A program made the translations under genes and the position numbers. Positions 12,851 to 20,473 of a DNA stretch of 22,789 bases are shown here, piece after piece; positions within the stretch are counted from its first letter, which is position 1, and every line of letters begins with the position of its first letter. The stretch is from a virus, in IMG/VR virus record IMGVR_UViG_3300020160_001183, positions 1 through 22,789 of that record; one strand, 5' to 3'. The notes beneath the pieces were generated by a model, which did not search any database, was not told the origin of the DNA, and saw nothing but the letters and a program-made list of their open reading frames with translations.

Positions 12851-13125
12851 GATCTTATAAATTTAAACATTGCTTGTAACTTCTTATGTTCTTCTACTAA
12901 ATCTTCTGGAGTAAATACAGCTTGACGGCCATCAAGTTTAACTTCAGTACGTGCATCTATTTTATGGGTTATTATTGCAGCCCATACACCACCATATATT
13001 TTAAATTCTACATAAATTCCTCCAGTTGTTCCCCAATATTGATAAAGTTGATGATCCTCATTATCTCTATAAAACCTATACTTTACAAGCTTCTTACCTA
13101 TTAGTTCTGTATCTCTAAGTGTCAT
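12847..13125 (-). CDS. Small beta-rich hypothetical protein
   Basis: 92 aa: beta-rich middle (QLYQYWGTTGGIYVEFKIYGG) and a C-terminal helix (LVEEHKKLQAMFKFIRS). No recognised family or catalytic motif. Its ATG overlaps the stop of the membrane protein at 13122-13262 as ATGA, and its own stop overlaps the next start by 4 nt, so it is translated by coupling. Confidence 0.68.
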   Translation of the reverse strand: MTLRDTELIGKKLVKYRFYRDNEDHQLYQYWGTTGGIYVEFKIYGGVWAAIITHKIDARTEVKLDGRQAVFTPEDLVEEHKKLQAMFKFIRS

Positions 13126-13262
13126 GGTTTTTTATTTTTCCACTCCTTCCAGACATCAAAGTCTTTTAGTTCTTCTATTTCTTTTCTCCATTCTATCTGA
13201 AGTCTTTTTGCTATAGCCCACATAATAAACATGCCTAATAGCATTCCTAATGCAAAGTCCAT
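13122..13262 (-). CDS. Small single-pass membrane protein (46 aa)
   Basis: ATG at 13260-13262, TGA at 13122-13124 overlapping the next ATG. It begins MDFALGMLLGMFIMWAIAKR: a membrane helix (about 3-18) followed by a charged helical tail (RKEIEELKDFDVWKEW). The ATGA coupling and the clear helix support it despite its size. It starts 26 nt downstream of the putative structured RNA, so that RNA could be its 5' leader. Function unknown. Confidence 0.68.
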   Translation of the reverse strand: MDFALGMLLGMFIMWAIAKRLQIEWRKEIEELKDFDVWKEWKNKKP

Positions 13263-13288
13263 CTTATTCTGATTTAAAGGTTAATTCA

Positions 13289-13382
13289 ACATTAGCTCTT
13301 CAGCTTTCTACTCCCAGCCCCGAGGAATTGTATATAACTTAGCCCATCTCACCGCTGTGTGGGAACTGAAGTTTACTAATGT
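13289..13382 (-). ncRNA. Putative structured RNA, three nested helices, unknown class
   Basis: Read on the minus strand, the gap between two genes folds into three nested helices: ACATTAG/CTAATGT (13376-13382 with 13289-13295), CTTCAG/CTGAAG (13366-13371 with 13298-13303), and TTCCCA/TGGGAG (13360-13365 with 13311-13316, one G-U pair). That is 19 bp, with a 4/2-nt internal loop, a 7-nt bulge and a 43-nt terminal region. Within it, CAC-AGCG-GTG makes a small hairpin; an alternative pairs CCCACAC with GTG...TGGG. There is no T-tract, so it is not a simple terminator. It starts 1 nt after a stop codon and ends 26 nt before the next ATG. It fits a leader element, a small RNA or a ribozyme-like element; I cannot match it to a known family. 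Confidence 0.55.
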
Positions 13383-13383
13383 C

Positions 13384-13665
13384 TTATTTTGATTTAACAG
13401 CAAGTTCTAGAAAGTATTCACCTATACCTAATGCAAGCATATCATTTTCAATTGGAATATTTGTAAAGTCAGAGACTTCTTTTAATTCCTTTTCAGTAAT
13501 ATACCATTTAAATACAAAATCATATGATACATCATATATTCTTAACTGAAACTGTTTAATAGATACATGTTCCCCTTTTTCATCATCAGGATTACTCCAA
13601 AAGTTGAAAAAGCCAACTATTTTATCTATAATTTCTGGTGCTTTATTTTCTTCTACCATATCCAA
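13384..13665 (-). CDS. Small acidic hypothetical protein
   Basis: 93 aa with an amphipathic N-terminus (IIDKIVGFFNFWSN), a beta-rich middle (RIYDVSYDFVFKWYI) and a C-terminal helix. It overlaps the membrane-protein gene upstream by 13 nt. Its stop is immediately followed by the putative structured RNA. No recognised family. Confidence 0.68.
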   Translation of the reverse strand: MDMVEENKAPEIIDKIVGFFNFWSNPDDEKGEHVSIKQFQLRIYDVSYDFVFKWYITEKELKEVSDFTNIPIENDMLALGIGEYFLELAVKSK

Positions 13666-19199: not shown

Positions 19200-19241
19200 A
19201 TAAATATGCAGATAAATATAGAGCATTTATAAAGAAGTTGA

Positions 19242-19253
19242 TGGTTTAAACCA
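19242..19253. promoter_or_regulatory. 12-bp perfect palindrome, operator candidate
   Basis: TGGTTTAAACCA lies 43 bp before the preferred start of the gene at 18918-19199. A second dyad, TTTAGC/GCTAAA (19260-19265 with 19274-19279), follows. Both lie between a double terminator and the gene, where a promoter must be if the gene is expressed independently. Confidence 0.4.
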
Positions 19254-19288
19254 ATAAAATTTAGCACTATATAGCTAAACAATGAAAA

Positions 19289-19306
19289 GGGAAGATTTCT
19301 CTTCCC
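19289..19306 (-). terminator. Intrinsic terminator, distal of a pair
   Basis: GGGAAGA/TCTTCCC (19289-19295 with 19300-19306) has a GAAA tetraloop on the minus strand and a TTTT tail. It closes the operon ending with 19350-19769. Confidence 0.85.
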
Positions 19307-19323
19307 CGTATCATTTGGTCAGG

Positions 19324-19349
19324 AAAAGTATATCAACAGATACACTTTT
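19324..19349 (-). terminator. Stem-loop directly after the 19350-19769 stop, proximal of a pair
   Basis: A 10-bp stem, AAAAGTGTAT/ATATACTTTT with loop CTGTTG on the minus strand, has one G-U pair that would be A-C on the plus strand, so the fold belongs to the minus-strand transcript. Its own 3' arm supplies the U-rich end. Confidence 0.7.
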
Positions 19350-20318: not shown

Positions 20319-20338
20319 AAATTTAAATTAAACAATAG

Positions 20339-20412
20339 TGATCCCAATAGGAGTCGAACCTATAACCTATACCTTAGAAGGGTAGTGCTCTATCCAGTTG
20401 AGCTATGGGACC
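20339..20412 (-). tRNA. tRNA-Arg (anticodon UCU)
   Basis: A 74-nt cloverleaf on the minus strand: acceptor GGTCCCA/TGGGATC (one G-U), D-arm GCTC/GAGC, anticodon stem CTACC/GGTAT (27-43 pair mismatched), loop CTTCTAA giving anticodon TCT, T-arm ATAGG/CCTAT with TTCGACT loop, discriminator A. The 3' CCA is not encoded. It reads AGA, the Arg codon favoured by this AT-rich genome, so it probably supplements the host pool. Confidence 0.93.
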
Positions 20413-20416
20413 AAGT

Positions 20417-20473
20417 AAGTAGACTATCATACCTTTTATCTACTTAATGCGTTCAAGGGTACACGCAAGGGTA
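20417..20473 (-). promoter_or_regulatory. tRNA leader: two hairpins and an 8-bp direct repeat
   Basis: Just 5' of the tRNA are AAGTAGA/TCTACTT (20417-20423 with 20439-20445) and TGCGT/ACGCA (20448-20452 with 20463-20467). CAAGGGTA on the plus strand occurs at 20454-20461 and 20466-20473. These may guide tRNA processing or form a regulatory site; no tRNA-like second cloverleaf is visible. Confidence 0.45.

Follow-up and report, generated by a model that had tools for sequence, protein, structure and literature searches.

The tRNA arrays of phages are a long-standing puzzle, and several stable non-tRNA RNAs encoded there (T4 rnaC and rnaD, GOLLD and ROOL) have no known role. GOLLD and ROOL are phage non-coding RNAs of unknown function, often found near tRNA islands (PMC12286853), and the annotation of NC_000866 places T4 rnaC and rnaD in a phage tRNA cluster. 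HDV-like theta ribozymes of gut phages, compact pseudoknotted RNAs, also occur in phage tRNA arrays, and by definition their cleavage site lies at the start of P1, about 1–5 nt from a tRNA 3′ end (PMC10879173). The general idea that phage tRNA islands carry extra RNAs is not new; the RNA family described here we rate as new. It resembles GOLLD and ROOL in being a phage RNA located near tRNAs. Unlike these RNAs, which measure 600–800+ nt, it is about 95 nt long and has no Rfam match: the GOLLD model (RF02032) was not matched over the element, GOLLD lying elsewhere in the contigs, and ROOL membership was examined through the Rfam scan alone. It also resembles T4 rnaC and rnaD, small non-tRNA RNAs of a phage tRNA cluster (stability being a feature of the T4 RNAs), and our covariance model, run with filters off, gave no match at either. 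Like freshwater-1 (RF02979) it is a small structured RNA of the same arrays, but freshwater-1 is 62 nt long, occupies a separate locus in L053 and L107, and was found in only 3 of 34 large contigs carrying our RNA.

The starting point was a 22,789-base IMG/VR virus record, hereafter the window (the whole stretch analysed), whose genes lie on the minus strand. Neighbouring genes in the window are separated by a median of 1 nt, whereas positions 13263–13383 form a 121-nt gap between an upstream gene for a 93-aa protein (13384–13665, minus strand) and a downstream gene for a 46-aa membrane protein (13122–13262, minus strand), whose adjacency to the RNA is not conserved. A preliminary description of this DNA had placed an unclassified RNA of three nested helices in that gap, and its coordinates, strand and gap length were borne out. 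When folded as a single sequence, the 94 nt gave a minimum free energy of -26.2 kcal/mol (z = -1.95), and 6 of 200 shuffled sequences folded equally well, a modest signal that is suggestive and not decisive. The minus-strand frames across 13263–13383 are broken by stops, with only plus-frame segments shorter than the gap uninterrupted, and homologues differ by indels of 1–2 nt inside the core and by other frame-changing variation; on these grounds protein coding was rejected. In L010, L050 and L057 short ORFs extend into the RNA or across it but are not conserved in the family as a whole, and in L050, L056, L057 and L140 a tiny hydrophobic ORF of about 20 aa (MTPLLL...RKRR or RKRH) ends inside or beside the 5′ strand of P1. 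As had been noted, there is no T-tract (no T-run follows P1 in the window sequence, as expected of an intrinsic terminator) and there are no tRNA arms, neither ARAGORN nor Rfam calling a tRNA over the element. Judged by the comparison of homologues, the minus strand of the gap does encode a real structured RNA.

Exact copies of a 28-nt stretch of the minus-strand core were found in 22 IMG/VR viral contigs, and looser patterns were found in 29, 50, at least 119, 103 and at least 120 contigs, the scan with 103 including a few unrelated coding sequences such as L192 and L240. With a relaxed detector, the core was recovered at 244 of the IMG/VR phage contig loci retrieved, representing 118 distinct cores from lake and marine phage genome fragments. 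For structure analysis we used 141 distinct sequences including the outer stems, which fall into group I (80, including the window) and group II (61); the two differ in their loop sequences and are linked by a few intermediates (L292, L296 and L298). The whole element of the window, from P1 to P1, spans 13289–13382 on the minus strand and belongs to group I; covariance model R1 matched it at 13284–13381 with 112 bits (E 2e-27), a score to be read with the window sequence itself among the model's sequences. No credible match was found in the sequenced phages of INPHARED or the plasmids of PLSDB, and two group I patterns had no match in 84,980 GTDB genomes. In Rfam 15 (4227 models) the window copy had no match at E<=10 and the group II member L190 none at E<=5, while for the group II member L204 Rfam matched only the adjacent tRNA, together with weak sub-threshold hits inside that tRNA. 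These results, with the strong covariation described below, uphold the label of an unclassified RNA, and we found no description of it in the open-access literature searched. Several unusual copies were seen: in L140 (2590–2864) a group II copy and a group I copy lie in tandem, separated by about 175 nt, L210 and L220 carry two copies each, 1011 nt apart, and L151 (412–515) and L156 hold degenerate copies with a scrambled 5′ half and an intact 3′ half (31–36 bits).

Compensatory substitutions among the homologues are extensive in two of the three helices first drawn. In alignment numbering the pairings are P1 2–8:90–96, P2 12–19:81–88, P3 C20–C22:G41–G43, P4 58–61:73–76 and K1 26–29:68–71. P1, drawn with seven pairs between ACATTAGT (13375–13382) and GCTAATGT (13289–13296), changes on both sides at all 7 tested pairs. 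P2, between CTTCAGTT (13364–13371) and AGCTGAAG (13298–13305), had been drawn with six pairs and really has eight, with both-sided changes at 6 of the 8, including U-A/A-U at 13364:13305; this pair (19–81) alternates among A-U, U-A and U-G in the alignment, so that P2 extends further than drawn. The third nested helix, TTCCCA/TGGGAG, can be drawn on the single sequence as well, but it did not survive the comparison: no compensatory pair was found, and among 73 homologues two of the pairs are broken, one in 41 sequences and the other in 15. We rejected it in favour of two hairpins with kissing loops.

The first of these, P3, pairs CCCA (13360–13363) with TGGG (13343–13346). Its CCC:GGG pairs are invariant or U-G and its fourth pair is A-U/G-C in part of the sequence set; P3 is short, and both this and the partial support for pairs beyond CCC:GGG count against our preferred reading. 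The second, P4, pairs ATTC (13325–13328) with GAGT (13310–13313), and its inner pair 61–73 is C-G in 90 sequences, U-A in 43, U-G in 7 and C-A in 1, with about 16 changes on the tree. Two kissing segments connect the loops: K1 joins CAGC in the P3 loop (13354–13357) to GCTG in the P4 loop (13315–13318), and K2 joins GAG (13348–13350) to CTC (13322–13324). K1 occurs as CAGC:GCUG, CCGC:GCGG, CUG:CAG and CAGU:ACUG, the CCGC:GCGG swap appearing in L298 on a group I background, and K2 occurs as GAG:CUC in group I and as ACG:CGU, GCG:CGC or CAG:CUG in others. The second pair of K1 is A-U in 81 sequences, C-G in 50, U-A in 9 and G-U in 1, without a mismatch in 141 and with about 6 changes on the tree; the tree includes the scored columns, so that these change counts are approximate. 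Covariation was 0.358 in group I versus 0.149 when shuffled, and in group II alone, where 90.2% of cells are paired, 0.324 versus 0.145. As loci were fetched by exact patterns, conservation within the pattern bases is inflated. The scans in which the alternatives at the key K1 pair (27–70) came to light placed no constraint on that pair, and none of the scans constrained P1.

From these patterns, the core of about 80 nt is a three-way junction of the short hairpins P3 and P4, closed by P2, and covariation supports pairing of the P3 and P4 loops with each other through K1 and K2. The junction strand J3/4, CTAAGTTATATACA (13329–13342), is mostly invariant in groups I and II, and J4/2, AGAA (13306–13309), is invariant in the 141 sequences, though it lies within the detector pattern. 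The unpaired GGGNTAA, AUACAAUU and AGAA are likewise nearly invariant, although the search patterns account for part of this. The loop contact would fix the near-invariant strands CUAAGUUAKAUACA and AGAA in position relative to each other. Ligand-binding or catalytic RNAs, for example the purine riboswitches, are laid out in this way, with a three-way junction, a loop-loop contact and invariant junction strands. The outer stem P1 is variable; in most copies it closes the element, but a few group II members have almost none of it. In L224, L237, L260 and L261, where P1 is nearly absent, the core lies between tRNA-Gly or tRNA-Tyr (1–2 nt) and tRNA-Gln (5 nt); for this reason P2-P3-P4 looks like the functional unit. 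We also considered a mimic of E. coli 16S, 23S or 5S rRNA and rejected it: core strings such as AGCGGUGARAUG resembled the 16S 690 loop, with similarity not above that of shuffles (consensus, shuffle p 0.11–1.0, with one of ten tests at 0.037).

The genomic surroundings point to tRNA arrays. A tRNA lies within 2.5 kb of the RNA in 118 of 141 copies, and all 698 neighbouring tRNAs are on the same strand, with 0 on the opposite one, although not all are independent because the surroundings of related contigs overlap in content. Our first context set gave the same picture, with 347 same-strand tRNAs versus 0 opposite. The spacer between RNA and tRNA is often 1–10 nt, and the distance from a tRNA end to the core ranges from 1 nt up to hundreds. 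Arrays hold up to 26 tRNAs, and large contigs (91–296 kb) generally have one copy of the RNA. GOLLD occurs in 15 of the 34 large contigs that carry it, and neither GOLLD, freshwater-1 nor the tmRNA of L057 overlaps it. A second conserved tRNA-like RNA, GTCAGGAGTGTAATGAGGC...GTGGGTTCGAATCCCACCCTGAC, often follows the element (L057 2115–2232, L140 2862–2978); it has an acceptor and a T arm with an odd middle, and ARAGORN made no call for it in L057. No tRNA was found within 2.5 kb in 17 of 85 distinct contexts, the window included. Among the roles first proposed, a trans-acting or processed structural RNA is favoured by the association with tRNAs. A leader of the membrane gene is disfavoured: unrelated genes or tRNAs come after the RNA in other contigs, and most loci that have the downstream 92-aa gene are without the RNA, only the window and L010 carrying it among 48 sources with the 92-aa or 93-aa gene families.

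The window copy is unusually placed, between protein genes. A 96% identical relative of the upstream 93-aa protein is encoded in L048, with no RNA after its stop codon, and nearly identical RNAs precede different genes in L010, L052, L067 and L070; a short 3′ flank, AACCTTTAAATCAGAATAAGATG, is common to the window, L010, L052 and L070. The L010 contig has a second copy (L125) beside a tRNA. Elsewhere in the window, the slot before the MNWLGKMFKKKKKSY gene holds a tRNA-Arg-like gene; in L116 and L178 this slot is occupied by the RNA, followed by a related gene, and in L049 by the RNA together with that tRNA. These locus comparisons (L048, L010/L125, L116, L178 and L049) lead us to infer that the RNA behaves as a cassette: like a tRNA gene, it is swapped, lost and copied. 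ARAGORN called the window tRNA (20338–20412, minus strand) as 'Pyl' with anticodon CTA. The call is probably a register artefact, because its close relative in L049, tRNA-Arg(TCT), has the identical loop CTTCTAA; of the 42 window genes, 7 have TAG as their stop codon. Before this tRNA (~20420–20450, minus strand), and directly before the RNA in L116, lies a small hairpin around GATAAAAGGTRTRATAGTC, possibly another conserved array element. Another kept gap of the window (19227–19349, minus strand) contains two strong hairpins (-35 kcal/mol), 86–90% identical in L106, L125, L146 and L179, which may be terminators or another RNA. The window DnaB-type helicase is about 30% identical to that of crAss-like phages, and this similarity suggests Bacteroidota hosts for the phage.

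Taken together, we assign a probability of roughly 0.62 to the reading in which these sequences form a new family of phage RNAs that are small, probably stable and active in trans, that would be made together with tRNAs and would bind a putative partner through the junction, and in which the window copy would have moved out of an array. Transcription would take place within phage tRNA arrays, cleavage at the flanking tRNAs would release the RNA, and it would accumulate as tRNAs do. Trans action is favoured because there is no constant downstream gene and because the spacing from tRNA ends is not fixed. Release by tRNA processing cannot account for all copies, since some contexts have no tRNA nearby. 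During infection the junction would serve as a putative binding site for a protein, a ribosomal site or a small molecule. The most plausible role would be in safeguarding or promoting phage translation, for instance by acting as a decoy for, or an antagonist of, host defences directed at tRNAs or translation, and the group I copy of the window would have moved from a tRNA array into its slot between two protein genes. It is the location of the RNA from which a link to translation or defence may be drawn. As described in two reports (PMC10264068, PMC11555353), phage tRNAs can evade tRNA-targeting host defences, which makes a defence-related partner plausible for the RNA. A more specific proposal, which we regard as rather unlikely, is a counter-defence agent: an aptamer or decoy scaffolded by kissing loops and made with tRNAs, which would capture a host tRNA-cleaving effector or signalling nucleotide, or else a self-assembling multimer joined through the loops.

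The RNA might instead be a new self-cleaving ribozyme through which the transcripts of tRNA arrays are processed. The theta ribozymes are a precedent (PMC10879173), and the location in arrays, the compact pseudoknotted core and the highly conserved junction strands would agree with such a role. We consider it unlikely, because the distance between tRNA ends and core varies and P1 may be present or nearly absent, unlike the fixed position of theta cleavage sites. Self-scission with a catalytic C in J4/2 is a further trait of theta/HDV-like ribozymes. The topology deduced here, a closing stem with kissing hairpins, differs from theirs, P1 and P2 close the whole element in a manner unlike HDV, and no Rfam ribozyme model matches.

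We are more doubtful about a ring- or dimer-forming RNA in which the P3 and P4 loops would pair between molecules. The loop-loop covariation fits intramolecular and intermolecular pairing alike, and a three-way junction with two complementary loops is the layout of the phi29 packaging RNA. GOLLD, a homo-oligomer to which such an RNA would be akin, as to ROOL (PMC12286853), is found in many of the same genomes. However, the location is in tRNA arrays and was not seen at packaging genes, and the Rfam pRNA model had no match.

That the RNA acts in cis on the downstream gene, as a leader or riboswitch, appears very improbable. The window RNA lies 26 nt ahead of a gene, the 3′ flank is common to four copies, and like a purine riboswitch the RNA has a closing stem, a three-way junction with a conserved junction sequence and two kissing-loop hairpins, if the kissing indicated by covariation of K1/K2, P2 and P4 is intramolecular. 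Against this, the RNA is free-standing in tRNA arrays in the majority of copies; tRNAs or varied genes come next instead of purine-related genes, Rfam gave no match to the family-specific purine-riboswitch core, and neither a terminator nor an alternative pairing was seen. A switch role is disfavoured because no downstream gene is constant. We give equally little credence to a processing or spacing signal in the tRNA transcript, such as an RNase landing site without function after cleavage, which would suit the strict co-orientation with tRNAs and the very short spacers but not the usual single copy per contig in arrays of many tRNAs, the near-invariant junction bases, unexpected for a simple stem signal, or the copies that persist outside arrays.

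In summary, the usual position between phage tRNA genes in hundreds of fragments points to a stable RNA that would benefit the infecting virus. It adds to the non-tRNA RNAs of phage tRNA arrays a member that is compact, widely shared and extremely conserved. The family also provides a three-way junction with kissing loops, supported by covariation, and the invariance of the junction sequence indicates a specific, putative partner. Its small size suits crystallography, in-line probing and pull-downs, making the role of the extra RNAs in phage tRNA arrays directly testable.
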